DNA of 64,000 bases, taken from contig JAIUOC010000009.1 of NCBI GenBank assembly GCA_020161265.1, forward strand, positions 310,001 to 374,000, in the 5' to 3' direction. This stretch comes from Chloroflexota bacterium. Lineage in GTDB: Bacteria > Chloroflexota > Chloroflexia > Chloroflexales > Herpetosiphonaceae. The position numbers and the translations under genes were made by a program. Positions 3,026 to 22,628 of the stretch are shown piece by piece. The number at the start of each line of letters is the position of its first letter. Position 1 is the first letter of the stretch. The notes under the pieces were generated by a model, which saw only the letters and a list, made by a program, of their open reading frames with translations, was not told the DNA's origin and did no database searches.

Positions 3026-3621
3026 ATATGAAGCAAAATAGCCCAAATTATCAATTGCCCAAGGCTGTGCATCAAGTAGGCCGACCACTATTCGAGCAAC
3101 AATGTTGGTGTTGGGGTCACGATGTGCGGCGTAGCGCAGGCAATTTGCTGCTGGAATATGGCGCAACGCGCAGCCGTGTGCCTACCGAGCAACGGGGCAG
3201 TAGCAATTATTATTTTCAATTGAGCTGTGGAGCGAGATTGGATTTGTGGGGTTGGGGTTTGTGGTATGGCGATGGCTATGCGCCAAGCCTGTTTTTGCGC
3301 CGCGATAAACTGCAAGTTGGATTGATTGAGCGGGCAGCGCCGCTGTGTGATGTTTGGTCGCTCAGCCAAATTCCAGCCGTTCGAGCGCCGCATACTTGGG
3401 CTGAATGGCTGTGTATGACCAGCTTGCTCGGTCATTGTTGCACATGGATTGCCGCCTACGAGCAGTGGGTTATCGCGCAGGCAGGGCTTAATTATCGCCA
3501 AACATGTGTCGCCGATTGGCAGAAACCAGCCTTGCCAGCCCACGAAATGGCTGAGCGCTGGCAACAACTAAACGATTTAATTATTGCCAGCCAAGAAAAC
3601 CTCAGCCTAACTGCGGTTTAG
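3010..3621 (+). CDS. Unknown protein, Trp/Cys-rich
   Basis: I do not recognise this 203-residue protein. It is rich in Trp and Cys (QQCWCWGHDVRR near residue 30, then GNLLLEYG, later LDLWGWGLWYGDGY). It has no clear signal peptide or membrane segment, so it is probably cytosolic. Two starts are possible, ATG at 3010 or ATG at 3028. Neither has a good ribosome binding site, and the second dyad (3011-3025) lies between them. Its stop overlaps the folD stop on the opposite strand by 4 bp, so the two genes converge tightly. It appears to be controlled by the preceding promoter and dyads. Confidence 0.6.
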   Translation: MIYSINMKQNSPNYQLPKAVHQVGRPLFEQQCWCWGHDVRRSAGNLLLEYGATRSRVPTEQRGSSNYYFQLSCGARLDLWGWGLWYGDGYAPSLFLRRDKLQVGLIERAAPLCDVWSLSQIPAVRAPHTWAEWLCMTSLLGHCCTWIAAYEQWVIAQAGLNYRQTCVADWQKPALPAHEMAERWQQLNDLIIASQENLSLTAV

Positions 3622-4478
3622 GCTTGATCAGCCAACCATTGGGCAGCTTGTAAGGTGTTTTGCAGCAACATCATATTAGTGACCGGGCCAGTACCGCCTG
3701 GTACCGGGGTAATTGCGCTCGCAACCTTGCTGGCACTTTCCCAATCAACATCACCAACCACTTGGCCTTCAGCCACTTCGTTGATGCCAAAATCGAGCAC
3801 CACTGCGCCAGGTTTGAGCATCTCGCCAGTGACCAAGCCAGCCTTGCCGACCGCCGCCGCCACAATATCGCCTTGGCAAATAACCTCGGCCAAATTGGCA
3901 GTACGTGAATGGCAAATCGTGACGGTGGCATGCCGCGCCAACAACAATTGAGCCAGCGGTTTGCCGACCACATTCGAGCGGCCAACCACCACCGCATGCT
4001 TGCCAGCCAGACTAATTTGATAGCGATCGAGCAAGGCCATGCCACCAGCAGGCGTATTGGGCACAAGCGCGGTCAAGCCTTGAGCCAAGCGGCCTGCGTT
4101 GGTCGGGTGCAACCCATCAACATCCTTTTGGGGATTGAGCGCGGCTACCGCACCATCAGCCGAGAGTTGGCTAGGCAACGGCATTTGAATGATAATGCCA
4201 TGAATCGCAGAATCGTTGCTGGCTTGTTGAATTGCCGCTTCTAAGGTCGCTTGATCGCAGGTTTCTGGCAAGCGTTGCAGGGCAAAGCCAAAGCCAACCC
4301 CTTCGCATGAACGCCGAATTGAACGCACATACCAATCGGAAGCAGCATTACCCGCCACTTGAATCACCACCAATTGGGGAGCATAACCAGTGCGAGCTTT
4401 GAATTCAGCCCCTTGTTGGCTAATTTGAGCCTTCAATTCCTTGGCCAACCCACGACCATCAAGCAAAAGCGCTGTCAT
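3618..4478 (-). CDS. folD: FolD-family methylene-THF dehydrogenase with catalytic Lys replaced by Ile
   Basis: FolD normally oxidises 5,10-methylene-THF to methenyl-THF and then hydrolyses it to 10-formyl-THF. I chose the ATG at 4478 (286 residues, usual length), preceded by AAAGGATG; an in-frame extension to 4520 would run through a terminator. Family motifs are present: Tyr50 in DWYVRS, IIIQMPLP (Gln98), KDVDGLHP (Asp121), VVVGRSNVVGKP and the C-terminal ITPVPGGTGPVT. At position 54, where E. coli has the catalytic lysine of YVASKRK, this protein reads YVRSIRR, and the codon is ATT. In this family that lysine is needed for cyclohydrolase, less so for dehydrogenase activity. I infer a dehydrogenase-only enzyme. 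The adjacent upstream gene encodes an FchA-type cyclohydrolase. Confidence 0.92.
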   Translation of the reverse strand: MTALLLDGRGLAKELKAQISQQGAEFKARTGYAPQLVVIQVAGNAASDWYVRSIRRSCEGVGFGFALQRLPETCDQATLEAAIQQASNDSAIHGIIIQMPLPSQLSADGAVAALNPQKDVDGLHPTNAGRLAQGLTALVPNTPAGGMALLDRYQISLAGKHAVVVGRSNVVGKPLAQLLLARHATVTICHSRTANLAEVICQGDIVAAAVGKAGLVTGEMLKPGAVVLDFGINEVAEGQVVGDVDWESASKVASAITPVPGGTGPVTNMMLLQNTLQAAQWLADQA

Positions 4479-4489
4479 AACATCCTTTA

Positions 4490-4518
4490 CAAATAAAAGG
4501 CGGAGCCTGCGCTCCGCC
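4490..4518 (-). terminator. Intrinsic terminator or attenuator between fchA and folD
   Basis: On the minus strand an 8-bp perfect GC-rich stem (GGCGGAGC/GCTCCGCC, loop of 4) is followed directly by TTTTATTT. It lies after the fchA stop and 11 bases before the folD start codon, so it should reduce or regulate read-through into folD. Confidence 0.65.
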
Positions 4519-4534
4519 ATCGTTGGAAAACCAT

Positions 4535-5167
4535 TTAGCCCTGAAGCTGTTGATTGACTAAGGCCATCACCGCCTCAGTATCGTCGTGCAGGGTTGCAGT
4601 TAGCTTGGCAACCTCGGCACGAGTTTCGCGCACATAAAATTGATCTTCGAGCGTGTTGAGATTAATTTCAACGTTGAGCAAGGCGCTGCGTACAGCCGCT
4701 TGAGCCAAGAGCACCGCCACGCCCACATCGCTCACTGCCGCTGAATTGCCTTTTTGAGCGGCTGGGCTACACAATGGCAAAATTGCCGCTGCCGCTTGGG
4801 CCGCCCTCAATGGCACATCAGTCGCAATCCGCGTCGCTTTTTGGATGGCATCGCGGCGAATCGCAATATCGGCGGTCGTTTCACGCGGCAATTTATAGGC
4901 TGCGCTCAAACGCCGAAATGCCTCAACATCAGCATCGGCTAGCTCTTGCAATTCGCGGCGCAACGACTCAGAGCGATCCATCAAACCACGAATTTCATCC
5001 TCGACCTCGGCATATTTCTTTTTGCCAAGCGTCAGCGAACAAACCATTGAAATCAAGCCTGCGGCCATTGCCCCAGACACGGCTGCAACACTACCGCCAC
5101 CTGGCACTGGCTCCTTGGTTGCAAGCTGATCCAAAAATTCGGTGATTGGCACCTGTAATAGGGTCAT
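4535..5167 (-). CDS. fchA: FTCD_C family protein, probable methenyl-THF cyclohydrolase FchA
   Basis: The protein of 210 residues belongs to the cyclodeaminase/cyclohydrolase family (C-terminal half of formiminotransferase-cyclodeaminase), which includes stand-alone methenyl-THF cyclohydrolases. Near the N-terminus it has EPVPGGGSVAAVSGAMAAG followed by LTLGKKKY, and in the C-terminal part a long helical segment with NVEINLNTLED, all typical of the family. It starts at an ATG preceded by the strong site AAGGAGGT. It lies upstream of folD on the same strand, 57 bp away. Because that FolD lacks the cyclohydrolase lysine, this gene is a natural partner that would convert methenyl-THF to 10-formyl-THF. 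A cyclodeaminase role in histidine degradation is the alternative, but no formiminotransferase is nearby. Confidence 0.82.
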   Translation of the reverse strand: MTLLQVPITEFLDQLATKEPVPGGGSVAAVSGAMAAGLISMVCSLTLGKKKYAEVEDEIRGLMDRSESLRRELQELADADVEAFRRLSAAYKLPRETTADIAIRRDAIQKATRIATDVPLRAAQAAAAILPLCSPAAQKGNSAAVSDVGVAVLLAQAAVRSALLNVEINLNTLEDQFYVRETRAEVAKLTATLHDDTEAVMALVNQQLQG

Positions 5168-5255
5168 AACGACCTCCTTGGTGTTGAATCAAGTTCATAT
5201 TGATCGTACCACATCTAAGCATACGTGCGGTTGAACGATTATGATCCATCGTTGC

Positions 5256-5927
5256 TTAAAGTGGGCCAAACTTGATCAAGTAGAGCAACATTCCAAGGCA
5301 TAAATAGGTACCATAGGCAATATACAGCGTGCCTTCGCCTTTGATTTGGCGCAGCGCCAAAATCCCAATTGAGGCGATCCCTGCCAAACCCATGCCATAC
5401 ATCAGCGCTCCGCCAAGGTGTCGCCAACCGACGGTTGCGCCCATAAAAAAGGCCAAATAAACATCGCCTAAGCCAAACGGCGCATCAGTATCAGGAAAAA
5501 GCAGCAGCGAGCCAGCAAAAAAGAGCAAAAACAACAAGCCAGCAATCAACGAGCCAATCAGCGAATCTTTAAAGCTAATCGTTAAAAAAGCCGAGCCAAG
5601 AAACGCAACCACAGTTGCAATCATCACCAGCAGCACATCAATCAGCCGTACCTTCCAATCGACTGCGCCAACCACAATATAAACCAAGCTGATTAGATAC
5701 CAATACAAGCCTTGCAGTGAAGCACCATAATCGTGATAGCAAACCCAAGCCATCAAGCCACTGGCTGCCGCAACCAACAAACCCACCCAAGTTGGGCCAC
5801 CAAGCAAGGGGTGACGTGGCGTTGGCAAAGGATTCGCAGCTTTGGGGTCGGTGGCGATTTGGGTAATCCATGGGTTGAGGCCAAAACCAAGCGCAATTCC
5901 AACCACAAGCACAATTGCTGGCAACAT
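5256..5927 (-). CDS. A24 prepilin peptidase (peptidase domain only)
   Basis: This is an integral membrane aspartic peptidase that cleaves type IV prepilin-like leaders. The 223-residue protein has six or so hydrophobic segments. The two catalytic aspartates appear in GAVDWKVRLID (about residue 91) and in FGLGDVYLAFFMG, the GxGD motif, where the usual GDVK has become GDVY. It lacks the N-terminal methyltransferase domain with the CxxC pair seen in bifunctional PilD. The start at 5927 follows AAGGATAA and comes 7 bases after the aroE stop, so it is probably the last gene of the mltG-aroE operon. No pilin genes occur nearby, so its substrate must be encoded elsewhere. Confidence 0.82.
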   Translation of the reverse strand: MLPAIVLVVGIALGFGLNPWITQIATDPKAANPLPTPRHPLLGGPTWVGLLVAAASGLMAWVCYHDYGASLQGLYWYLISLVYIVVGAVDWKVRLIDVLLVMIATVVAFLGSAFLTISFKDSLIGSLIAGLLFLLFFAGSLLLFPDTDAPFGLGDVYLAFFMGATVGWRHLGGALMYGMGLAGIASIGILALRQIKGEGTLYIAYGTYLCLGMLLYLIKFGPL

Positions 5928-5934
5928 AGGCTGA

Positions 5935-6759
5935 TTATCCTTGTAGAGCCGCTAGAGCTGCTGCTCGCATTATTTCAAGCGGTGCAGGCTGCTTGAACCA
6001 CAAACTAAACGCCAAACCTGCTTGCCGCACCAGCATATCAAGGCCATCGTAGTGGGCCGCACCACAAGCCGCCGCTACTCGCAGCAACGGCGTTTGGCGA
6101 TAAACCGTATCGTACACCATCAAGTCAGCATGCAACAGAGCTAAATCCAGCGGCGCAGGATCAGCATCCTTCCAGCCCAACGACGTGACGTTGATCAACA
6201 AGGTTGCAGCGGCAAGTTGTTCGGCCACTCGCTGATCATCGGCAGCTAACGCCAATTCATGTGGCAAAACTAAGGCTTGAGCACTGCTGAGCGTGCGGTT
6301 GATCAGGCTAATCTGTTGGCAACCTGCATTGCGTAAAGCCCAAAGTGCCGCCCGTGCCGCCCCACCTGCGCCGAGAATCACCGCCCGTTGGTTAGCGAGA
6401 TCTGCGCCATAGGCTTGCAATGAGGCTTGCAAGGCAGGGGCATCGGTGTTATGGCCAGTCAAACTTCCATCGGCTTCACGCACAACCGTGTTGACCGCCC
6501 CAAGTTCTTGGGCAATTGCCACTGTGCGATCAAGCAAACCAGCAATCGCCACTTTATGCGGCAAGGTTACGTTGGCTCCCAGCATACCCTCAGATCGCAA
6601 ACCGCGAACGCGGGCAGGCAGATCGGCGGCGGGAGTATGCCAACGATCATACTGCTGATTAATGCCAAGCGCCTGCAACGCAGCATTGTGCATTGCAGGC
6701 GAAAGACTATGAGCGACTGGATCGCCAATGATGCCAAGAGCAGCAGCTATTTGGGACAC
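5935..6759 (-). CDS. aroE: Shikimate dehydrogenase
   Basis: AroE reduces 3-dehydroshikimate to shikimate with NADPH in the cytosolic aromatic amino acid pathway. Length (274 residues) is normal. Substrate-site motifs are intact: GDPVAHSLSPAMHNAA at residues 12-27, NVTLPHK with its catalytic lysine near residue 68, and GHNTDAPAL (the catalytic aspartate). The NADP site is GAGGAARAAL, followed by INRTLSSA. The C-terminal GLDMLVRQAGLAF is also standard. Its start overlaps the end of mltG by 13 bp, which suggests translational coupling. Confidence 0.95.
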   Translation of the reverse strand: MSQIAAALGIIGDPVAHSLSPAMHNAALQALGINQQYDRWHTPAADLPARVRGLRSEGMLGANVTLPHKVAIAGLLDRTVAIAQELGAVNTVVREADGSLTGHNTDAPALQASLQAYGADLANQRAVILGAGGAARAALWALRNAGCQQISLINRTLSSAQALVLPHELALAADDQRVAEQLAAATLLINVTSLGWKDADPAPLDLALLHADLMVYDTVYRQTPLLRVAAACGAAHYDGLDMLVRQAGLAFSLWFKQPAPLEIMRAAALAALQG

Positions 6760-7826
6760 GCCAAAAACTCTTCTTGAAATTGCAAAAATTCGCTATAGTC
6801 GTTGGTGAAGTTGTGGGTTGGGCGTTCACCAGCAGCCACACACTTGGTCACAAAATAAGTCACATCTTCGGCGGCAGGCGAGGCAGCGGCTTGCAAGGCA
6901 AACAACCCAGGCGCACTAATTGGCCCAGGTGGCAAGCCGGGGTTGACCCGCGTGTTGTACGGACCAGCAGCACTATTAATTTGTTCAACCGTTAGCTGAT
7001 CAAGCTTTGGCCACCAATTACCCGATTCACCTAAAATATACTGAATCGTTGGATCGGCTCCCAGTTGATTGCCAGCAAATTCTGGTTTCAGACGATTCCA
7101 GAAGGCGGCAGCAATCCGTGGCATTTCCTCGTTATTGCTGGCTTCGCGCTGCACAATCGAGGCTAAAGTCACCACTTCATGGACAGAGCGTCCAGTCGTG
7201 GCGCTACTCAACGGCGAATCAGCCCAGCGAATTGCAAAGGTATCGAGCATTTTGCGCACAATCTCTTCGCTAGTTGCATCAGAAAAGATTTCATAGGTAT
7301 CAGGGAAGAGATAGCCTTCCAAGGTTGCACTATCTGGCAAGCTAGATAAAAAGCTATAATCGGCCTTGAATTGCGAGCCATCACGGGCCACAGCTAAGAA
7401 ATCATCAGCACTAACGACCCCAGTCGATTCAATCACCGCCGCAATTTCTTCGATCCGCAATCCTTCAGGCACGGTAAAGCGCACCGCAGTTTGAACTTCT
7501 GGGGCAACCCGAAACATCTCTAAAATCTGATTGATCGTCATATTTGGGCTAATTTTGTAGGTGCCAGGATACAAATCGGTCTCGGCATTACGTAAATCGG
7601 CGAATACGCGGAAAACAATTGCCCGCCGCACCAAACCTTCAGATTCCAGATTGCTGCTGATCACCGCCAAACTTTCGCTAGGAGCGATGGTAAAATTTTT
7701 GGCAATATCGCTCTCGCCAGCAGGCTGAGTTAACTCACGCAGAAACAGGGTTGCAACACACGCGACAACTAGTGCGCCGATAGTGGCAACAATCAACAAA
7801 GCTCGAATTAAACGTCTCACAAGCAT
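6747..7826 (-). CDS. mltG: Endolytic murein transglycosylase MltG (YceG-like)
   Basis: MltG cleaves nascent peptidoglycan glycan strands at the outer face of the membrane. The 359-residue protein begins with a short basic segment and one membrane helix (about residues 5-28). This is followed by the YceG region, which contains FTVPEGLRIEEIAAVIE (a LysM-like subdomain) and LEGYLFPDTYEI. The catalytic glutamate lies in LASIVQREASNNEEMPRIA. The C-terminal YNTRVNPGLPPGPISAPG is characteristic. It is the first gene of the mltG-aroE-prepilin peptidase operon, with a good promoter at 7896-7924. Confidence 0.93.
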   Translation of the reverse strand: MLVRRLIRALLIVATIGALVVACVATLFLRELTQPAGESDIAKNFTIAPSESLAVISSNLESEGLVRRAIVFRVFADLRNAETDLYPGTYKISPNMTINQILEMFRVAPEVQTAVRFTVPEGLRIEEIAAVIESTGVVSADDFLAVARDGSQFKADYSFLSSLPDSATLEGYLFPDTYEIFSDATSEEIVRKMLDTFAIRWADSPLSSATTGRSVHEVVTLASIVQREASNNEEMPRIAAAFWNRLKPEFAGNQLGADPTIQYILGESGNWWPKLDQLTVEQINSAAGPYNTRVNPGLPPGPISAPGLFALQAAASPAAEDVTYFVTKCVAAGERPTHNFTNDYSEFLQFQEEFLACPK

Positions 7827-12264: not shown

Positions 12265-13500
12265 CTACTCGCTCCGTAGCAGGCGATCGGCATTCGCGAT
12301 ACTTTCTTCCAAGGGTGCGCCGTTTAAGCTATTACGCACCAAAGCGATCAGGATATCCCATCCGTTGTTGAAACGAAGGGTGGTGGGCCAAGCGCTGGCT
12401 CGACTAACCGCCAGTTGAATTTGGCTGTACAGTGGATCGGCACTGGCTAAGTCGATTCGGACGCTTGGTATATCAGCGGCTTGAAAAGCCGTTTGCGCTT
12501 TCATCTCCACAAGAAACCGCATCACGTCAAGCGCGGCGTTTTGCTGTTGTTCAGTGCTGCGTGGGCTGATCACAAGCACGCTGCTCCGAACAAAGGGTTG
12601 CGGTTCTTGGCCGGTTTGGCTCAGGCGTGGCAATGGTTGCACGCCAACGTTCTCCCCCCACAATTGACGATAGGTTCCGATTTGATCTGCCCAGTCAATC
12701 GTCATGATCGCACTGTTTTGGCTCACGCTGCGAGCTATCAGTCGATGATCATCACGGGCTAACAAGCGTGGGTCTTGGGCTAATTCGTCAACCCACGTCA
12801 ACCACTGTAATGTTGGGGTATAGCTTTGGGTTCCCAGCACGACCTCGCCAGTAGTATCGAAGATTGCGCCTCCGAAGGCTGGGAGGTAGGGTTGGGTAAA
12901 GTATAGCGATAAATTATACGCTAATCCGTACTGTCCTTGATCATCGCTAAACCCGCGAGCGATCTCAAGCCATTCAGCAGTGCTTTGCGGCGGTGTGCTC
13001 ACAAAGTTTGCACGATTATAGTACAGCACAGGTAGATCTAGCGTCAATGGCAAGCCATATAATTTCTCGCCATAGCGGGCACCATCAAGCGCAGCTGGCG
13101 CAATTGACTCAAAGTTCTCGTCGCTTAGTCGTTCTGTCAGATCGATGATAAGCTGTTGATCTGCCAGTTCCCCTACCCAACGATTTTCGTTGAGCCAGAT
13201 CAGGTCTGGTGGTGTGCCTTCAAGCAGGGCCGCACGATAATCGTGTAGCAGGTTTGCCCCACGATTGACGATTTGAATCACAACGTTTGGATGCTCACGT
13301 TGATATTCTAACAGCAATCGGGTGAAAAGTTCACTCCGTTGGGCATCGGCTCCATGCCAAATGACCAGTTGCGTGCGTGCGGGAGGATTAGCGGTAGCCC
13401 CTGGGGTTAACAAAGTGTTATCATAGCTTGTCGTGCTACAACCAGCAACAATGAGAATCCCAATCATAAAAAGGCTAAAATACCGCCATACTGCCCTCAT
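12265..13500 (-). CDS. Sugar-type ABC transporter substrate-binding lipoprotein (orphan)
   Basis: This 411-residue protein is an extracytoplasmic family 1 solute-binding protein. It begins with a lipoprotein signal ending LIVAGC (lipidated Cys21). The first lobe has TQLVIWHGADAQRSELF and PPDLIWLNENRWVGELADQ. The hinge and second lobe have YGLPLTLDLPVLYYN, as in maltose and glycerol-3-phosphate binders. The conserved ligand loop LVISPRSTEQQQNAALDVMRFL is also present. No permease or ATPase gene is adjacent on either side, so the rest of the transporter is encoded elsewhere or the protein acts as a sensor partner. Confidence 0.85.
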   Translation of the reverse strand: MRAVWRYFSLFMIGILIVAGCSTTSYDNTLLTPGATANPPARTQLVIWHGADAQRSELFTRLLLEYQREHPNVVIQIVNRGANLLHDYRAALLEGTPPDLIWLNENRWVGELADQQLIIDLTERLSDENFESIAPAALDGARYGEKLYGLPLTLDLPVLYYNRANFVSTPPQSTAEWLEIARGFSDDQGQYGLAYNLSLYFTQPYLPAFGGAIFDTTGEVVLGTQSYTPTLQWLTWVDELAQDPRLLARDDHRLIARSVSQNSAIMTIDWADQIGTYRQLWGENVGVQPLPRLSQTGQEPQPFVRSSVLVISPRSTEQQQNAALDVMRFLVEMKAQTAFQAADIPSVRIDLASADPLYSQIQLAVSRASAWPTTLRFNNGWDILIALVRNSLNGAPLEESIANADRLLRSE

Positions 13501-13617
13501 GGGTGTATCCCGTTCTTTCGTTAATTGCGTTTTATCTCATTATAAAGGCATAAAACGCCAACGAATCACCAAAAGTATACCATGCTCATGCGTTACTGAC
13601 AAGCTGTCGTAAACCCC

Positions 13618-13648
13618 TTGACTTTGAGCACGCTCAAAGGTGTAGACT
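13618..13648 (+). promoter_or_regulatory. MerR-type promoter with 19-bp spacer and palindromic operator
   Basis: The -35 TTGACT (13618-13623) and -10 TAGACT (13643-13648) are 19 bp apart, the long spacing typical of promoters activated by MerR-family regulators. The spacer holds a perfect palindrome, CTTTGAGC-AC-GCTCAAAG (13622-13639). It drives the aldo/keto reductase gene starting at 13686. No merR-like gene is in the window. Confidence 0.75.
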
Positions 13649-13685
13649 GCCAATATCGCTTTGGTGTACTCACTTGGAGGTTGGA

Positions 13686-14639
13686 ATGGAACAACGGTCA
13701 CTTGGCACGCAAGGCCTCACAGTTAACCCGCTTGGCTTGGGTTGTATGGGCATGTCGGAGTTTTATGGCCCAACTGATGAGGCCGAATCGCTGGCAACAA
13801 TCGATCGCGCCTTGGAGCTTGGGGTCAACTTCTTCGATACTGCTGATATGTATGGGCCTTTTACCAACGAGCAATTGGTTGGCAAAGCCTTCAAAGGCCG
13901 CCGCGATCAAATCATCCTTGCAACGAAATTTGGTATTCAACGCGAAGCCAACAATCAACGCTCGATCAATGGCCGCCCTGAATATGTTAAGGCTGCCTGC
14001 GACGCTTCTTTGCAACGCTTAGGGGTCGATTATATTGATCTGTATTATCAGCATCGGGTCGATCCCAACGTGCCAATCGAGGAAACTGTCGGCGCAATGG
14101 CCGAATTGGTTCAGGCAGGCAAGGTGCGGTTTATCGGCTTATCCGAAGCCAATTCGGAAACGATTCGCCGCGCACACCAGGTACACCCAATTAGCGCTTT
14201 GCAAACTGAATATTCGCTCTGGTCGCGCGAGCCAGAAATTGATATTTTGGCGACAACTCGCGAATTAGGCATTGGTTTTGTGGCCTATAGTCCGCTTGGG
14301 CGGGGCTTCTTAACCGGTCAATTTCGCAGCATCGATGATTTTGCCGCCGATGATTATCGCCGCTACTCACCACGCTTTCAAGGTGAAAATTTTGGCAAGA
14401 ACTTGGCTTTGGTTGAACATATCGAGCAACTAGCTAGCCAAAAGGGCATCACGCCTGCTCAATTAGCCTTAGCTTGGGTCTTGAATCAAGGTGCTGATAT
14501 TGTGCCAATTCCAGGCACCAAGCGTCGGCGCTATCTCGAAGAAAACATGGCTGCGCTCAACGTGAGTTTCAGTGATGCCGAACTGGCAGCAATTAACGCG
14601 GTGCTGCCAATTAATGTCGCGGTTGGCACACGCTACTAG
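13686..14639 (+). CDS. Aldo/keto reductase (AKR, perakine reductase-like)
   Basis: This is an NADPH-dependent aldehyde/ketone reductase with a TIM barrel. The ATG at 13686 is preceded by GGAGG, giving 317 residues. The catalytic tetrad is visible: Asp and Tyr in DTADMYGPF, Lys in ILATKFGI and His in [11 protein letters not shown]. The cofactor site includes [11 protein letters not shown] and [13 protein letters not shown] near the C-terminus. It is a stand-alone gene behind a MerR-type promoter. In other bacteria such promoters respond to aldehydes, metals or oxidants, which fits an aldehyde detoxification role. Confidence 0.92.
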
Positions 14640-14779
14640 ATCTTGATAGCCGCATCCCCAGCTCCTCTCCGATCAATAAGACGAGGGGCTGGGCGATCGT
14701 AGCTCACCGATAACCCTCACAACCCGCTCCATCAAGCTCCTCGGCACAGTTCTGGCTCAAGCACCTGTTTGCGAACACC

Positions 14780-14788
14780 TGCTATAAT
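14780..14788 (+). promoter_or_regulatory. Extended -10 promoter of the GH57 gene
   Basis: A perfect TATAAT (14783-14788) is preceded by TGC, giving an extended -10 element; no good -35 is seen. It lies 53 bp before the start codon at 14841. Confidence 0.5.
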
Positions 14789-14840
14789 GGGAATCGACCT
14801 CTGCAACATGTCCCGCATGTTCCGCAAAGAAGGAGCATCT

Positions 14841-16790
14841 ATGCCAAAACAAGGTGCGTTCACGTTTGTCTTACATAGCCACTTGCCCTACTGTCGCAAG
14901 GCTGGCCGCTGGCCTCACGGTGAAGAATGGATTCACGAGGCCGCTTCCGAGACGTATATTCCACTACTCAATGCGCTCAACGATCTGATCAACGATGGGG
15001 TTACACCACGCTTGACGATTGGGATTACGCCAATTCTAACCGAGCAGCTTGCCGACCCCACCATTTTGCACAATTTTGAAGAATATCTCGACGAGAAGAT
15101 CACTGCGGCGCAAGCTGATATGGATCGGCTGGCCGATGTTCAGGCGGTTTGGGATGCTGCTCAAATTGCCGAACCAGAAACCGAGCCAACTCCTCTGCTC
15201 TCCAGCGAAGAGTTGGAAAGCTTGATTACCAAAAGCGATGCGCTGCTTTCTTCAACCGCTGGTGATGCCCCAGCTCCACTTCACGCTGGTTTGCTGAGCG
15301 CCACTGCTGCTGCTAGCACCGAAGCTGAAGCAGACGAGGAAGCGGAAGAAGAAGAAACCGAAGAAGAAGAAGTTGAAGAGCCAGCTCCGATCGAGCAGCC
15401 TGATCCACATAAAGCCTATTTGGCCATGTGGTATCGCGATTGGTACAGCATGATCAAGCGTTCGTTTATCGAGCGCTACAACCGCGATATTGTCGGAGCC
15501 TTCCGCCAATTGCAAGATGCTGGCTATATCGAAATTATCACCTGTGGCGCGACCCACGGCTACTTGCCCTTGGTCAGCCGCGATTCAACGATTTATGCTC
15601 AAATTGCGGTCGCTGTCCAAAGCTACGAACGTCATTATGGCCGCAAGCCGAAGGCGATTTGGCTACCTGAATGCGCCTATCGCCCAGCCTATTATCCTGA
15701 AAACCCCAGCGAAACCGAGCGCAAGCCTGGCATCGAGGAATTTCTCGAAGCCCAAGGCATCGAGTGCTTCTTCGTCGAAACCACCACCATCGAGGGTGGC
15801 GCACCAATGGATAAGGCTGAAGGCAAGATTCTTGGACCATATGGCGATACGCTGCGCCGCTATGTCGTGCCAGTCAGCCGCGAAATTCCGCCAACTGGCA
15901 ATAGCACACTCCAACCCTACTTGGTTGGTTTGAGCGATAAAGTTGCGGCAATTGGTCGCCATCACAAAACTGGCTTGCAAGTGTGGTCGGCTGAATGGGG
16001 CTACCCCGGCGAGGCCAACTACCGCGAGTTCCACCGCAAAGATAGCGAAAGCGGCATGCAATATTGGCGGATCACTGGGCCAAAAGTTGACCTTGGCTAT
16101 AAAGATTACTATCATCCCGATTGGGTCAGCGATAAAGTTAATGCTCACGCCGAGCACTTCACGGGCTTGGTGCAGCAAGTTATCAGCGAATATCGCGGCC
16201 AAACTGGGCGCTATGGCCTGATTTCATCAAACTACGATACCGAATTATTTGGTCACTGGTGGTTTGAAGGGGTCGATTGGATGCGCGAAGTGCTGCGGCG
16301 CTTGGCCGCTAATCCCGATATTGATCTCACCACGGCCTCGGAATATATCGCCAGCAACCCACCGCGTGAATCGTTGAACCTACCCGAAAGTTCGTGGGGT
16401 TCCAATGGCACGCACCAAACATGGCTCAACCCTGAAACCGAGTGGATGTGGCCAATTATTCATGCCGCTGAAAAACGCATGGAAGGCTTGGTCGCCAGCT
16501 ATCCACAGGCCGATGGCGCTTTAGCCGAAGCCTTGGCGCAAACTGCGCGTGAGTTGCTCTTGCTGCAATCCAGCGATTGGCCGTTCTTGGTCACGACTGG
16601 CCAAGCTCAAGATTACGCCACCAAGCGTTTCAACGAGCATGTCGATCGCTACAATCAATTGGCTGATGCAATTGAGGCCAATGATGCTGGCTTGATGGCC
16701 GAACTGACCGCCAGCTTCAACGAGCTTGATAATCCATTCCCCACGATTGATTATCATGTATTTGCCGCTCGTGAAGGCTCAGCAGCCTAA
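14841..16790 (+). CDS. GH57 glycoside hydrolase with acidic insertion
   Basis: This is a family 57 enzyme, probably an alpha-glucan branching enzyme or related glucanotransferase. The ATG at 14841 follows AAGGAG closely; earlier in-frame ATGs lack a site. Its 649 residues begin with FTFVLHSHLPYCRKAG (motif 1) and LTIGITPILTEQL. The likely nucleophile glutamate is in WLPECAYRP and the acid/base aspartate in YDTELFGHWWFEG. Residues about 105-190 interrupt the barrel with a low-complexity segment, and 161-180 are almost all Glu, Asp and Ala. Related proteins usually have a much shorter loop here. The following gene is PurD-like and may be co-transcribed, as a hairpin without a T-run separates them. 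Confidence 0.88.
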   Translation: MPKQGAFTFVLHSHLPYCRKAGRWPHGEEWIHEAASETYIPLLNALNDLINDGVTPRLTIGITPILTEQLADPTILHNFEEYLDEKITAAQADMDRLADVQAVWDAAQIAEPETEPTPLLSSEELESLITKSDALLSSTAGDAPAPLHAGLLSATAAASTEAEADEEAEEEETEEEEVEEPAPIEQPDPHKAYLAMWYRDWYSMIKRSFIERYNRDIVGAFRQLQDAGYIEIITCGATHGYLPLVSRDSTIYAQIAVAVQSYERHYGRKPKAIWLPECAYRPAYYPENPSETERKPGIEEFLEAQGIECFFVETTTIEGGAPMDKAEGKILGPYGDTLRRYVVPVSREIPPTGNSTLQPYLVGLSDKVAAIGRHHKTGLQVWSAEWGYPGEANYREFHRKDSESGMQYWRITGPKVDLGYKDYYHPDWVSDKVNAHAEHFTGLVQQVISEYRGQTGRYGLISSNYDTELFGHWWFEGVDWMREVLRRLAANPDIDLTTASEYIASNPPRESLNLPESSWGSNGTHQTWLNPETEWMWPIIHAAEKRMEGLVASYPQADGALAEALAQTARELLLLQSSDWPFLVTTGQAQDYATKRFNEHVDRYNQLADAIEANDAGLMAELTASFNELDNPFPTIDYHVFAAREGSAA

Positions 16791-16815
16791 CCTAACCAAG
16801 TAGATTTATTATTAC

Positions 16816-16848
16816 GCGATTGCTGTTAGCCCAAATAGCAGCAATCGC
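16816..16848 (+). other. Intercistronic hairpin
   Basis: A 10-bp perfect stem (GCGATTGCTG/CAGCAATCGC, 13-base loop) lies between the GH57 stop and the PurD-like start at 16866. There is no T-run, so it looks like an mRNA-processing or stability element more than a terminator. Confidence 0.45.
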
Positions 16849-16865
16849 GCTAGCAATTTAGGCCT

Positions 16866-18227
16866 ATGAAAGTACTTGTGCTTGGCAAAAATGGCGCAGC
16901 CCATGCCTATGTTTGGAAGTTGTTCAATAGCCAACGGATTGATAGTTTAGCAACCATGCCAGGCAATGGTGGTACAAGCTTGCTTGTGCCAAATGCTGAG
17001 CAAATTGAAAAAATTAACGAGTTGGCCAAATGGGCCTACGACGAACACTTCCAAGTAATTATTCCGGCTGAGGGCAGCTACCTCAGCGCGGGTTTGGCTG
17101 ATGCCGCCGCTGCCTATAAAATTCCGGTTTGTGGGCCGCCCAAAAATTCAGCAGTCCTAGAGCGCTCGCGGCTTTGGCTCAAAGAATTTCTCAATCGCCA
17201 CCAAATTCCGACCTCAACAGGCCGTGCCTTGGGCGATTTGGCCATGGCTGAGCGTTATGTGGCCTCGCAACCCATGCCACTCATGCTCTGGGGCGATTAT
17301 CCCTCAGAATACGATGGAGCCTATACCGACCGCGCCGAAGCCTTAGCTGCCTTGGCGGGCATTTTTGCCTTGCCGCCGCGCGAAGGCCACTATCGAGGTG
17401 TGGTGATTGAGCAGCCAGCACTTGGCCCAACCGTGGCACTTTCAGCAATTACTGATGGCACAACCCTGATTCCAATGCAAGCAGTCCGAATGTATGATCG
17501 ACTTGAGGATAACGATCAAGGCTGGGCAGCTGAAGGCATGGGGGCGCATACCACGCCTAGCGGAATTCTCAAACAACTTAGTGATTATCTCAGTGCCGCT
17601 ATTCTTGAGCCAATTCGCGCCGCTCTCTTGCGCGATAAAATGCCTTGGTGGGGAATTTTAGGGGTCGATTGTGCAATTACCGCCAGCGGGCCGCAAGTGC
17701 TGCGCATACGCACAACCTTGAGTGATCCTGAGGCGCAAGTTTTATTACCCTTGCTCGAAGACGATTTATTTCCCTTCTTGGTAGCGGCCAATAACCGCAG
17801 CTTGTTAAATGTGCCAGCTTTGCGTTGGCGCAATGAGGCGAGCGTTGGCGTAACCATGGTCGCCAATGGCTATCCGCATAGTTTTAACACTGGAATGGCG
17901 ATCGACGGCGTGATTGAGCTTGATGCTGGAGTCGTGGCATTTCAAAATGAAACCGCCAACCCCAATGGCTTGCGCTATGTCTCCGCTGAACTGCATATGC
18001 CTGAAAAACGTGGCTTATTCAGCGGGGTCAGCGATGCCTTAAACGATGCAATTCTGGTGCGATCGATGGGGCCAAATCGTTTATCAAGCCAAGCAGGACG
18101 CATCGTTACCGTCACCGCCCAAGCCTCAAGTTTGGCAGCCGCCCACGAAAAAGCCTACAACAACCTCAAACGGCTACGAGTCAACTCAGCAGTTTACCGC
18201 AACGATATCGGCCTACGCGAGCTATAG
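16866..18227 (+). CDS. PurD-like ATP-grasp protein lacking catalytic residues
   Basis: The 453-residue protein aligns along its length with phosphoribosylamine-glycine ligase (PurD). MKVLVLGKNGAAHAYVWKL matches the N domain, PGNGGTS the second loop and GPPKNSAVLERS the A domain. EGMGAHTTPSG stands in the place of GGMGAYSP and VGVTMVANGYP in the C domain. Key ATP-grasp residues are gone. The segment VKADGLAAGKG of true PurD reads MLWGDYPSEYDG here. The Mg-binding Glu and Asn of the EFNVRFGDPE-type motif are arginines 280 and 282 (VLRIRTTLSDPE). I infer a pseudoenzyme, or an enzyme with altered chemistry, and expect a normal purD elsewhere. There is no frameshift or stop, so the frame has been kept under selection. 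Confidence 0.8.
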   Translation: MKVLVLGKNGAAHAYVWKLFNSQRIDSLATMPGNGGTSLLVPNAEQIEKINELAKWAYDEHFQVIIPAEGSYLSAGLADAAAAYKIPVCGPPKNSAVLERSRLWLKEFLNRHQIPTSTGRALGDLAMAERYVASQPMPLMLWGDYPSEYDGAYTDRAEALAALAGIFALPPREGHYRGVVIEQPALGPTVALSAITDGTTLIPMQAVRMYDRLEDNDQGWAAEGMGAHTTPSGILKQLSDYLSAAILEPIRAALLRDKMPWWGILGVDCAITASGPQVLRIRTTLSDPEAQVLLPLLEDDLFPFLVAANNRSLLNVPALRWRNEASVGVTMVANGYPHSFNTGMAIDGVIELDAGVVAFQNETANPNGLRYVSAELHMPEKRGLFSGVSDALNDAILVRSMGPNRLSSQAGRIVTVTAQASSLAAAHEKAYNNLKRLRVNSAVYRNDIGLREL

Positions 18228-18250
18228 CAACGCTGGAATATCGGTCTTTG

Positions 18251-18278
18251 GTCGGTAGTATGGCCTATCACTACCGAC
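18251..18278. other. Hairpin downstream of the PurD-like gene
   Basis: A 9-bp perfect inverted repeat (GTCGGTAGT/ACTACCGAC, loop of 10) lies 23 bp past the stop. It lacks a T-run and could be a weak terminator or an operator for the lipoprotein genes downstream. Confidence 0.4.
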
Positions 18279-18316
18279 TATGCTTGGTTTAATTCTGCAA
18301 TTGAGGGAAGTTGAAT

Positions 18317-18952
18317 ATGCTACTATTCCGCAAAATCGGGCTTGGGCTGTTATTAATCGTGCTTACTGGCTGTTCGCTCACTGCCGAACCCCTGTCAATC
18401 CAAGAGGCCTACGATCAAGGATTAATCGATTTAGAGTTTAAAAACTCTGGCACATCAGGCGACGTAATGTTTATGATCGTCACTGGCAAAACTGATCGCT
18501 CGATTCGCATCACGATTCCTGCTGGCCAGATTTTGGATAATCAAACCGACTATCACGAAGATATGGTCTTGATTGCCTATGAAGGTCGGGTTGATACCCT
18601 AGAAGATACGTATATCCAACCAAAGGCGCTGATTACAAAACAGGCCACAGCTCGCTACGGCATTATTGAAGCCTACAGCCTTGAATTGTATGCAGATCCA
18701 GGCACTGATACTGATGTCTATGAATTTGATGGCTTTGTTGATGCAGAATTGCAACAGCTCGTTGACCATTTAGTGCTACAAAGCAGCGAAGAGTTTGTGG
18801 GCAAACAATTGGCAATCTGGGCCTTGACCGATAACCCTGATCGCGAAACGACCTCCGAGATTATCGAATTTACCGAGCATGATCTTGAACAAGCTCGCAG
18901 CTTTTTGCTTGGCGCAAACTTAAATCCCAACGATTATCGGATTTTTGAGTAA
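18317..18952 (+). CDS. Lipoprotein, paralog 1 of a tandem family of three
   Basis: This 211-residue protein begins with a lipoprotein signal ending VLTGC, so it should be anchored on the outer side of the membrane. I chose ATG 18317 (after GAGGG) over the TTG at 18311. The mature protein shares a pattern with the next two genes: SIQEAYDQGLIDLEF, then SGDVM, IRITIPAGQILDN, and GIIEAYSLELYA. Near the end it has KQLAIWALTDN followed by an acidic helix. The function is unknown; the regular strand pattern suggests a small beta-rich binding domain followed by helices. Confidence 0.75.
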   Translation: MLLFRKIGLGLLLIVLTGCSLTAEPLSIQEAYDQGLIDLEFKNSGTSGDVMFMIVTGKTDRSIRITIPAGQILDNQTDYHEDMVLIAYEGRVDTLEDTYIQPKALITKQATARYGIIEAYSLELYADPGTDTDVYEFDGFVDAELQQLVDHLVLQSSEEFVGKQLAIWALTDNPDRETTSEIIEFTEHDLEQARSFLLGANLNPNDYRIFE

Positions 18953-18998
18953 TCAATTAATCATTGCTATTAAAGTTTAGATTTGAGGGAAAACGAAT

Positions 18999-19649
18999 AT
19001 GTTACTACTCCGCAAAATCGGGCTTGGTTTAGTATTAATTGTGCTCGCTGGTTGTATGCTTAGCTATGAACAACTGACAATTCAAGAAACAATTACCCAA
19101 GAACGAATTGATGTGCGCTTTATGGCCAAAGACTTCACGGGTGATTCAATGATTGTTACTATGCGTGGGAAAGTTAATAAACCGACGAATGTCACTATTC
19201 CGCATGGAATTTTATTAAGCAATCGGAATAAACGTCAAGATTTAGTCGCAATTCGCTATAAAGGACGAACGAAATCAGTTGATGCAGAGAAATATCGTGC
19301 GGTTGAAGAAACATTTCTGAATGCTGAAAAGAAACAAACTGTCCATTTTGTTTTAGAAGTTTATAGCACAAACTTTTATCGCGATTACATTCAGGCAAAT
19401 GATCAATTTATGATCAACGGTATGGCAGAAGGTGATTTGAAAAAATTTGTTGATTTTTTAGCCGATCAAAAAGATGGAAATGATACTGCAAAACAGTTAG
19501 CCATTTGGGCGATTACCGATGATGCCACCCAAGATGAGGCCATAGAATATTACACAAATATTCGGCCTGAGCATTTTAAGCTGGCGGAAGAATTAATTAT
19601 TGAATCAGGCTTAGATACCGCAGATTATTTGATGTTTTACGAAGAATAG
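18999..19649 (+). CDS. Lipoprotein, paralog 2 of a tandem family of three
   Basis: This 216-residue lipoprotein (signal ending VLAGC) keeps the family landmarks TIQETITQERIDVRF, TNVTIPHGILLSN, VLEVYSTNFY and KQLAIWAITDD. Its DNA is visibly more AT-rich than the copies on either side, and several conserved aspartates and glycines have changed. It is therefore the most divergent of the three. The start follows GAGGG. Function unknown. Confidence 0.72.
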   Translation: MLLLRKIGLGLVLIVLAGCMLSYEQLTIQETITQERIDVRFMAKDFTGDSMIVTMRGKVNKPTNVTIPHGILLSNRNKRQDLVAIRYKGRTKSVDAEKYRAVEETFLNAEKKQTVHFVLEVYSTNFYRDYIQANDQFMINGMAEGDLKKFVDFLADQKDGNDTAKQLAIWAITDDATQDEAIEYYTNIRPEHFKLAEELIIESGLDTADYLMFYEE

Positions 19650-19661
19650 ATAAGGATTGTT

Positions 19662-20315
19662 ATGCTCACTATAATTAAATATCGATTACCCCAATTTGTG
19701 CTGTTAGCTGTAGTTCTTGCAGGATGTTCTTTGGGTACTAATCAGCGCAAAACGTTGAATCAAGCGATTGACCAAGGTTTAGTTGATGTTGAATTTACCA
19801 ATCTTGGTACCTTTGGCGATGTGATGATCGCCACAGTTTATGGCAAAGCCAATGATTCGGTTGAGTTGACAGTTCCCAGTGGATTAATTGTTAAGAATGA
19901 AAGCTCTGATGAAGATTTTGTTTTGGTGCGCTATCAAGGTATGCTCAGTGCCGCCGATGCCATCGATCCGCAGCTTGAGGAGCCACTAATTGCGCACAAG
20001 GATCAGGCTAGCTATGGCTTGATTGAAGCCTACAGCATTGAGGCCTACACGAATTCACCAGCAATCAGCGATACATTTCGGCTTGATGGCTTTGCTGATG
20101 GCGATTTGAAAATGCTAATCGATGTGCTTGCCCAAAAACCGCATGATCAATTTACTGCCAAACAAATTGCGATTTGGGCAATTACCGACGATGCTGATCG
20201 TGAAGTTATTTATTGGGCCAGTTCACTGTTTAAGGAAGAGGATTTCGAACAAGCCAAAGCGTTGTTAATCGAGGCCAAATTAGATCCCGCCAACTATCTG
20301 TTGTTTGCCGAATAA
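19662..20315 (+). CDS. Lipoprotein, paralog 3 of a tandem family of three
   Basis: This 217-residue lipoprotein (signal ending VVLAGC) starts only 12 bases after paralog 2 stops, so the two are co-transcribed. Shared landmarks are TLNQAIDQGLVDVEF, GTFGDVM, VELTVPSGLIV, GLIEAYSIEAY and KQIAIWAITDD. It is closer to paralog 1 than to paralog 2. A strong terminator follows directly. Function unknown. Confidence 0.73.
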   Translation: MLTIIKYRLPQFVLLAVVLAGCSLGTNQRKTLNQAIDQGLVDVEFTNLGTFGDVMIATVYGKANDSVELTVPSGLIVKNESSDEDFVLVRYQGMLSAADAIDPQLEEPLIAHKDQASYGLIEAYSIEAYTNSPAISDTFRLDGFADGDLKMLIDVLAQKPHDQFTAKQIAIWAITDDADREVIYWASSLFKEEDFEQAKALLIEAKLDPANYLLFAE

Positions 20316-20319
20316 ACAA

Positions 20320-20350
20320 AACCCCCGCCATGTTCTCAATGGCGGGGGTT
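20320..20350. terminator. Bidirectional terminator between convergent genes
   Basis: A 12-bp perfect stem (AACCCCCGCCAT/ATGGCGGGGGTT, loop of 7) is flanked by A residues on one side and T residues on the other. It sits between the lipoprotein cluster and the leftward Fe-S protein gene. Confidence 0.88.
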
Positions 20351-20369
20351 TTTGCTGCGTTAGCCGAAT

Positions 20370-22628
20370 CTAGGCGGCGGGTGGTTGCTCACCAACCGAT
20401 TGCAGCAGAATTTCGGCGACATCTTTGCGACCCAAGGTTTCTGATTGGTTGGTGTTCTTGGCGGCATCCTCAAACATCACCATACAGAAGGGGCAGCCCA
20501 TCGCCACGGTATCAGGCTTTTCAGTTTGCAGTTGCTCCAGCCGAATCACATTGACATGTTTATCGCCAAAGCCTTCGAGCCAAGCATTACCACCACCGCC
20601 ACCGCAACACATCGCTTTTTCACGATTGCGCGGGCCAGCTTCGACTAACTCCAAGCCAGGAATGCTATTTAGCACATTGCGTGGCTCTTCGTAAATATCG
20701 TTGTAGCGGCCAATGTAACAGGGGTCGTGGTAAACAACCTTTTCGTTGACTGGCACGGTTGGGTTGAGCTTGCCAGCTTCGACCAAATCATTCAAGAATT
20801 CGGTATGGTGCACCACTTCGTAATCCACGCCAGCTTTGCCGCCAAACTGCGGATACTCGTTTTTGACGGTGTTATAGCAGTGGGCACAGGTGGTGACGAT
20901 CTTCTTGAATTTGTATTGACCCATGGTTTCGATATTGGTGTTGGCTTGTTGTTCGTACAACAACTCCTCGCCCATGCGCCGTGCTGGGTCGCCAGTACAG
21001 GTTTCTTCATCGCCAAGAATGGCGAAATCAACCCCAGCTTTTTGCATCAACTGGACCATTGCACGGGCGGTTTTCTTCGAGCGATCATCATACGATGGAG
21101 CACAACCAACCCAATACAATACTTCGGCTTCTTCTTTTTCGGCCAAAGTTGGCACTTCCAAGCCATCAGCCCAAGCGGTACGCTGGCGTTGTGGCAACTT
21201 CCATGGATTGCCGTTGCGCTCGATCCCTTGCAACACCGTTTTGACACCCGATGGAATTTCGCCCATCACCATGGTCAAGTTGCGGCGGAAATCGATAATA
21301 TCATCAACATGTTCAATCGTTGCTGGACACTCGGTCATACACGCGCGACAGGTGGTACAAGCCCAAAGTTCGTTTTCGGTGACAATGCCATGTTCATACA
21401 ATGGCAAGGTTTCGGGCGTGCCTTCCAGCAATTCGATTTTTACGCCGTTGCTGGTGGTTGGGGCAGTGGCGGTTGCGCCAGCAGGCTGAACCATCACTAC
21501 CGTGCCATCGCGCTTCATCACTGGGCCGCCATGCATCAAATCGCTCATCTTGGTGATCAGCCATTTGGGCGAAAGCTCGGAGCCAGAGGCAAACGCCGGA
21601 CAATTATCCTGACAACGCCCACAGCGCATACAGGCATCAAAATCCATGCGGCGCTTCCATGAGAAGTCGCTCAGCGTGGTAATCCCCAATTTTGGCTCAT
21701 CTTTTTCCAGTTCCTCTTCCATATTTGGAATTCGATCAAGCGCACCTTTGGGGTCGCGATCGCGGAACAAGGTGTTGAGCGGGGTATAGAAAATGTGACG
21801 GAATTTGGTGAAGGGAATTGAGCCAACAAAGGCAAAAACCACCGCCATATGGCTCAGCCAGAGTACGCGGTGAATCCACAAGGCTACTTGGCTATGAATC
21901 AGCGTACCATCGGCGGCGCGTTCGACACCAAGGCCAATCGCGCGGGCAACGCTGGCCCCAGGATAACCAAAGATCGCCCATTTGGCCCAACCTTGCTCGT
22001 AGACGATCGCGGTGACAGCATCTGCGCCCTCGCCAACGGTCATGGTTTGGTTGGCCAAGCGCAAAATTTCAATAAAGTAACCGCCAACCACGATAAAAAT
22101 CATCGACCAAAGCACCCAAGCATCGGTCCGGCGATTATCCAAGCGGGTTGGTTTGGTTTTGTAGCGTCGCCACAACGCCCAGAGCAAACCAGCGAGAAAG
22201 ACCATCCCCATCACATCGAGAATCAGTTCATAATACTGATAAAAGCCACCAGTTAAAATCTTGCCTTGCTCTTCACCAGCAATTGGAATGGTGAAGTCGG
22301 CTTCAGCGGCGATGATATCGGTGCCGATAAACAGCGCCAAAAAGCCGTAGAAGATAAAGGTGTGCATGATGCCCGGGGTACGGTCACGTAAGACGCGCTT
22401 CTGCCCAAAAACCTCGGTCGTCGTTAACCACAAGCGACTGGCAAAATTGGTCGAGCGCACTGTTGCATGGCCGCGTCGCCACAACAGAATGTCTTGATAC
22501 ATCTTGTAGAACATCGTGCCAATTGAGGCGATGGCAAACAAGTACAACACATACTCAACCGCATGCGGTAAGTTCCAGTAAATCTCGCGAACGGCGATAA
22601 CTTGGCTGTTAAATAGAATCTCGTGCAT
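20370..22628 (-). CDS. Membrane Fe-S oxidoreductase with NarI-like and CCG domains (EMO-like)
   Basis: This 752-residue protein fuses an N-terminal cytochrome b-like membrane domain (about residues 20-290, six helices, NarI-like) to a soluble Fe-S part. Two [4Fe-4S] ferredoxin motifs are CMRCGRCQDNCPAF and CTTCRACMTECPA. They are followed by two CCG-type cysteine-rich domains (CTGDPARRMG with CAHCYNT, then HDPCYIGRYN with CCGGGGG). This is the architecture of HdrD/GlcF-like enzymes and of ETF:menaquinone oxidoreductases that pass electrons from acyl-CoA dehydrogenases to quinone. I infer that role without proof; no etfAB genes are in the window, though an acyl-CoA ligase and an enoyl-CoA hydratase are. 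It starts at 22628. Confidence 0.83.
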   Translation of the reverse strand: MHEILFNSQVIAVREIYWNLPHAVEYVLYLFAIASIGTMFYKMYQDILLWRRGHATVRSTNFASRLWLTTTEVFGQKRVLRDRTPGIMHTFIFYGFLALFIGTDIIAAEADFTIPIAGEEQGKILTGGFYQYYELILDVMGMVFLAGLLWALWRRYKTKPTRLDNRRTDAWVLWSMIFIVVGGYFIEILRLANQTMTVGEGADAVTAIVYEQGWAKWAIFGYPGASVARAIGLGVERAADGTLIHSQVALWIHRVLWLSHMAVVFAFVGSIPFTKFRHIFYTPLNTLFRDRDPKGALDRIPNMEEELEKDEPKLGITTLSDFSWKRRMDFDACMRCGRCQDNCPAFASGSELSPKWLITKMSDLMHGGPVMKRDGTVVMVQPAGATATAPTTSNGVKIELLEGTPETLPLYEHGIVTENELWACTTCRACMTECPATIEHVDDIIDFRRNLTMVMGEIPSGVKTVLQGIERNGNPWKLPQRQRTAWADGLEVPTLAEKEEAEVLYWVGCAPSYDDRSKKTARAMVQLMQKAGVDFAILGDEETCTGDPARRMGEELLYEQQANTNIETMGQYKFKKIVTTCAHCYNTVKNEYPQFGGKAGVDYEVVHHTEFLNDLVEAGKLNPTVPVNEKVVYHDPCYIGRYNDIYEEPRNVLNSIPGLELVEAGPRNREKAMCCGGGGGNAWLEGFGDKHVNVIRLEQLQTEKPDTVAMGCPFCMVMFEDAAKNTNQSETLGRKDVAEILLQSVGEQPPAA

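Follow-up and report, generated by a model that had tools for sequence, protein, structure and literature searches.

The 64,000-nucleotide stretch of DNA analyzed here, which we refer to as the window, encodes a PurD-like protein that, judged by its residues, would be an ATP-grasp pseudoenzyme, having lost its catalytic residues while selection has kept the gene across the order Chloroflexales. The preliminary description of this DNA had proposed a maintained pseudoenzyme, and that proposal is upheld by a canonical purD at another locus of the genome, by the loss of active-site residues in all relatives, by purifying selection and by a single ancient split between the two kinds of gene. Loss of GAR synthetase (GARS) chemistry is well supported, and GAR synthetase activity of the PurD-like protein appears very unlikely.

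The gene lies at positions 16866 to 18227 on the + strand and is, as had been described, full length and in frame, extending from ATG to stop with no internal stop codons and specifying 453 amino acids (protein P0001). The protein has the complete GARS_N, GARS_A and GARS_C architecture, with the domains in that order and each above its Pfam cut-off (71.2 bits for GARS_N), and it misses the NCBIfam TIGR00877 cut-off for the purD equivalog (230.9 vs 288 bits). The source genome (6.04 Mb in 13 contigs, 99.98% complete, with the window in contig 9) has Herpetosiphon species as its nearest named relatives, and the PurD-like protein is present with 96% identity in H. aurantiacus DSM 785 (CP000875.1). 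With PurD/GAR synthetase (EC 6.3.4.13; 2YW2 of A. aeolicus and 2YRW of G. kaustophilus) the protein shares the fold, the domain order and the PGN-G, GMGA, GYP and C-terminal motifs, but it differs in its replaced catalytic and metal residues, in an insert at residues 368-403 (17967 to 18074, + strand) that is missing from canonical PurD and predicted with low confidence, in its sub-cut-off equivalog score, and in coexisting with a canonical purD.

The structure of the protein was predicted with AF2 from its own sequence, those of four orthologs in Herpetosiphon and seven viral-contig PurD rows. The model (mean pLDDT 85.2, pTM 0.86, poor only at 368-403) matches ATP-bound 2yw2, the A. aeolicus GAR synthetase, with a VIA Z of 51.3 at 1.9 A over 411 residues, and ranks 1-15 of a Foldseek search with the model are all GAR synthetases. 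The whole PurD fold is thus kept in the prediction, which, given the seven canonical rows in the alignment, indicates a compatible fold and is not independent proof. The same superfamily fold is found in PurT, PurK and biotin carboxylase, which match the predicted structure at Z ~28-30 and have 10-14% identity to the PurD-like protein among the matches listed; these enzymes keep their Mg-ATP ligands.

Active-site motifs were aligned in three ways: solved PurDs were compared with the single sequence and with a profile built from 20 relatives, and a profile was set against one of the order's canonical PurDs. In all three (HMMER and profile-profile) the canonical EFNARFGDPE corresponds without gaps to RIRTTLSDPE, placing codons 280-282 (R-I-R; 17703 to 17711, + strand) at the positions of canonical E-F-N, whose Glu and Asn we take, as in ATP-grasp enzymes generally, to be metal ligands. 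The change of both ligands to arginine, Arg280 and Arg282, had been noticed from the letters alone; it is real in this protein, but it does not hold as a mark of the family. This became apparent from a residue table of 28 paralogs from three families of the order, f1 (the Herpetosiphon family), f3 and f4, set against 19 canonical PurDs with positions mapped by motif. Glu is found at the first position in 19/19 canonical PurDs and 0/28 paralogs, which have there Gly (11), Arg (7), Ala (6), Asp (2), Asn (1) or Thr (1). At the second, Asn in 19/19 canonical PurDs is Arg in 28/28 paralogs, and codon 268 (17667 to 17669, + strand), Gly in 19/19 canonical PurDs, is Asp in 28/28 paralogs, making Arg282 and Asp268 the invariant charged residues new to the paralogs. 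The double arginine is a feature of Herpetosiphon and one close genus, and the mark of the family is the change of Asn to Arg together with Gly to Asp. Asp268 presumably stands at the place of the first metal ligand of other ATP-grasp enzymes (e.g., biotin carboxylase), 12 residues before the Glu. In the AF2 model, Asp268 is predicted on strand 263-272 and Arg280 and Arg282 on strand 275-282, the facing strands of the ATP-grasp hairpin. Copies in a fourth family, f2, have His at the Arg282 place (4/4) and Thr or Ile at that of Asp268, so either the role of the f2 protein differs or these residues are not at the core of that role. The f2 paralogs (L032, L054, L055, L056 and L085) have diverged further than the others, and a subtilase gene adjoins in three of the loci.

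Changes extend to the remainder of the site. Two further observations made from the sequence at the outset were confirmed: the ATP-binding KADGLAAGKG segment is replaced, by WGDYPSEYDG, with the replacement spanning codons 142-152 (WGDYPSEYDGA; 17289 to 17321, + strand) in the alignment and residue table, and the GEE hinge is lost, its second Glu being Thr189. In A. aeolicus PurD, according to the available text of PMC8880213, ATP is contacted by Lys103, Lys143, Glu185, Glu192 and Lys214, glycine by Asp212, Arg287 and Glu292, and Mg by Glu100 and Lys214. All mapped contacts and the E-x-N pair are retained in 19/19 canonical PurDs. Among the 28 paralogs (A. aeolicus numbering), Glu192 and the glycine-binding residues Asp212 and Arg287 are each found in 0/28, the place of Asp212 being hydrophobic in 27/28 and that of Arg287 taken by Ser, Thr or Asn. 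Lys214 has become Asp in 23/28 and Glu in 5/28, Lys103 has become Arg in 26/28, and the Lys143 position is Lys in 12, Trp in 8 and Arg in 8. Retained are Glu100, in 24/28, and both Glu185 and Glu292, in 28/28. In the window protein, codons 209-211 (M-Y-D; 17490 to 17498, + strand) stand in the residue table at canonical D-H-K, to which the available text of PMC8880213 gives roles in glycine and ATP binding. PROSITE pattern PS00184, printed as R[LF]GDPEx[EQIM] in the portion of PMC3261824 available, is unmatched by TLSDPEAQ of the window protein; Asp287, the Asp of GDPE, is present here and kept in 21/28 paralogs.

The pseudoenzyme proposal had been made to depend in part on whether the genome contains another purD, and one was found beside purN. 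This canonical gene encodes 420 amino acids at a separate locus, has purN directly downstream and scores 473 bits in the purD model, so the genome has no need of the PurD-like protein for GAR synthesis. In a survey of 41 genomes, the source and 40 relatives, the paralog was detected in 33: nine from f1, thirteen from f4, seven from f3 (a fragment in G031) and four from f2. The eight in which none was detected are six f3 genomes from a single genus (2.8-3.5 Mb) and two f2 genomes (G012: a 36-residue match only). The same search found a canonical purD alongside the paralog in 30/33 genomes, with no complete canonical purD seen in G006, G008 and G013. Absence from G013 was considered as a sign of an active isozyme and rejected, 10,000 masked bases lying directly upstream of purN, which is the place of purD in its relative G019. 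In G008 a contig end encodes the C-terminal 123 residues of a canonical PurD. As for G006 (L041), the assembly is 75% complete and keeps the PurD-like gene, which is adjoined by a glycerate-2-kinase-like gene; searches of it for canonical purD, purN and folD gave neither of the first two and no good match to the third.

When a profile of the paralog was run against 301 Chloroflexota genomes, the listed matches of 662-755 bits were all from Chloroflexales and the next scored 359 bits or less. Full-length matches among the latter, in G192, G120 and G075, have canonical motifs in all three. Copies in f2 score low with this profile, and score alone cannot tell them apart; motifs were read at 19 loci, 11 of them outside f1, f3 and f4 or canonical copies within those families. 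No paralog was found outside Chloroflexales in the 301 genomes, the lower matches having been motif-checked in part. Plasmid records gave 59 matches, the best 10 of 59 all having less than 31% identity and the annotated ones being purD, and the same profile gave no matches in a viral collection. IMG/VR contigs of up to 312 kb (L180-L186) carry PurD proteins with canonical E-x-N and GDPE motifs.

A maximum-likelihood tree of PurD homologs was built from 70 rows, 32 paralogs and 38 canonical PurDs. A single branch with 100/100 support divides the paralogs, as one group, from the canonical PurDs, and f1, f3 and f4 are recovered on the paralog side; a long branch (1.32) carries the four f2 rows and makes their exact placement uncertain. 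The simplest reading of this topology is that one duplication preceded the divergence of f1, f3 and f4 and was probably followed by vertical descent. Selection was assessed by pairwise Nei-Gojobori omega, in which some dS values exceed 1 and are rough. Across six Herpetosiphon genomes, median omega is 0.058 for the PurD-like gene and 0.053 for canonical purD (15/15 pairs each), and across five it is 0.066 for the GH57 gene discussed below (10/10 pairs). In genus g12 of f4, omega is 0.031 for the PurD-like gene (8/10 pairs computable) vs 0.030 for canonical purD (3/3). Given that dN of the PurD-like gene is ~1-5x that of canonical purD in the same genome pairs and omega is low, the PurD-like protein is faster-evolving yet constrained.

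Gene neighborhoods differ among the families. In the window, a GH57 1,4-alpha-glucan branching-enzyme-like gene (14769 to 16790, + strand) lies directly upstream of the PurD-like gene with a gap of 75 bp, in agreement with the adjacency first described. GH57 is directly upstream in 8/9 f1 genomes, with a gap of 65-116 bp or, in G007, a 4-bp overlap; the ninth, G006, has at this place a 1191-amino-acid protein with a weak alpha-amylase match, likewise overlapping the PurD-like gene by 4 bp. The GH57 protein contains a long acidic, Glu-rich stretch within its catalytic domain, at roughly residues 180-215. A 14-bp stem-loop (16815 to 16849, + strand) occupies the intergenic space in the window, with a z of -4.87 and 0/200 shuffles as stable; it is without a clear T-run, and three other Herpetosiphon species have a stem of other sequence in the corresponding position. 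No Rfam family or riboswitch reached the gathering threshold within 13000-20400, and promoter and terminator scans gave counts near chance (12 vs 8.9 expected and 6 vs 8.6 expected, respectively). Downstream, at 18311-20315, a tandem array of three related ORFs encodes lipoprotein-like products of 213-217 amino acids; ORF clustering showed one copy in H. aurantiacus (L034) and three in H. geysericola (L035).

The f4 arrangement is fchA-folD-PurD-like on one strand in 12/12 genomes examined, with a FolD-to-PurD-like gap of -4 to 185 bp and overlap in 4/12. A folD search of 11 f4 genomes gave the operon gene as the sole strong match, with these exceptions: G011, G014 and G020 each contain another strong match, and in G026, whose PurD-like gene stands at the end of its contig, folD is found on a different contig. 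At 4/5 f3 loci the neighboring genes encode an RlmD-like methyltransferase and a protein with a STAS domain, with ORFs that overlap, and fchA is elsewhere in the f3 and f2 genomes examined. The window itself contains folD (THF dehydrogenase/cyclohydrolase; 3618 to 4520, - strand), 12.3 kb from the PurD-like gene, and, 14 bp from folD, an fchA-like gene for methenyl-THF cyclohydrolase (FTCD_C; 4535 to 5167, - strand). In G001 the distance from fchA-folD to the PurD-like gene is similar to the ~12 kb of the window, and the location of the pair on the other strand at this distance may reflect former linkage or be accidental. ORFs that read by sequence as MltG-like, shikimate-dehydrogenase-like and prepilin-peptidase-like precede fchA and folD within 3618-7826 (- strand).

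We put at about even the chances that the protein is a PurD-derived pseudoenzyme serving as a ligand sensor or scaffold for one-carbon folate and purine enzymes, a reading in which we infer the ligand, the partners and the direction of regulation. In it, an ancient, order-wide purD duplicate has lost its glycine-, ATP- and metal-binding chemistry and retained the fold. The reshaped pocket (Asp268, Arg282, Asp/Glu211, Glu182 and Glu289) could hold an anionic ligand without Mg, or salt bridges could lock it, and the product may modulate or scaffold one-carbon folate and purine enzymes, with FolD and FchA as the best candidates. A partner or sensor role is favored by retention of the gene, by the strictly conserved new charged residues of the pocket and by the folate operon, and the restriction of strict folate linkage to f4 counts against a folate partner. 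A more detailed version, that an order-specific, Mg-independent pseudoenzyme, whose f4 gene belongs to the fchA-folD operon, senses PRA, GAR or folate through Arg282 and Asp268 and so couples the 10-formyl-THF output of FchA and FolD to purine synthesis, or else chaperones unstable PRA between PurF and PurD, is doubtful as formulated. The same new residues, charged and invariant in the paralogs, could belong to a re-purposed enzyme whose rebuilt pocket (Asp268, Arg282, Tyr210, Asp/Glu211, Glu182 and Glu289) carries out a different reaction, such as phosphotransfer or ligation with one metal on Asp268, and the position of Asp268 on the facing strand, where other ATP-grasp enzymes have a first metal ligand, would suit this. 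We regard such an enzyme as somewhat unlikely, given that the ATP lysines at 103 and 143 are weakened, the glycine-rich loop is gone and the f2 clade is without both new residues.

The preliminary description had instead looked to the GH57 neighbor and suggested binding of a nucleotide or sugar phosphate, and a role in glucan metabolism through a sugar phosphate or nucleotide sugar would fit the upstream GH57 genes of f1, the overlap in G007 and the alpha-amylase-like neighbor in G006. This suggestion does not carry over to the order: the adjacency is confined to f1, no GH57 neighbor was seen in the other three families, the partners being FchA and FolD in f4 and STAS and RlmD-like proteins in f3, and the window has a stem-loop between the two genes, leaving a glucan role quite improbable. 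That the protein is a GAR synthetase isozyme that works through an atypical active site is highly improbable. The full fold is retained and three genomes have the paralog with no complete canonical purD seen, but loss of glycine and metal residues is seen in 28/28 paralogs and each of those genomes has its own qualification, namely the masked bases at purN in G013, the PurD end piece in G008 and the incomplete assembly of G006, which is also without purN or a good folD match. Loss of active-site residues and the elevated dN might further be taken for a functionless duplicate in decay, an explanation we find scarcely credible; the evidence on selection and retention contradicts it, with frames intact throughout, an omega of ~0.06 and order-wide retention.

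Extra PurD-like proteins have a precedent in haloarchaea, where Haloarcula marismortui rrnAC0307 and Halorubrum lacusprofundi Hlac_1553 are, in the available text of PMC3261824, not GAR synthetases despite their annotation and are described as being without GARS_N, the Mg sites and the Asp of the GDPE motif. These are likewise second PurD-like proteins beside a presumed functional purD. A non-GARS PurD paralog is a kind of protein already known, and on the features given in that text the Chloroflexales family is distinct from the haloarchaeal proteins in keeping GARS_N, in usually keeping the Asp and in being order-wide. No description of the PurD-like protein was found among the papers listed on PurD paralogs, ATP-grasp pseudoenzymes (where the subject was TTLL12), and Chloroflexus and Herpetosiphon purine and folate genes, a set with few subscription titles. 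Its Pfam domains would label the gene PurD, and assignment as GAR synthetase would lead to wrong metabolic models of Chloroflexales. The strict replacements of Asn by Arg and Gly by Asp make the regulator idea directly testable, and if a role in regulating one-carbon or purine flux is true, the Chloroflexales would have kept a pseudoenzyme derived from a purine enzyme across an entire order.
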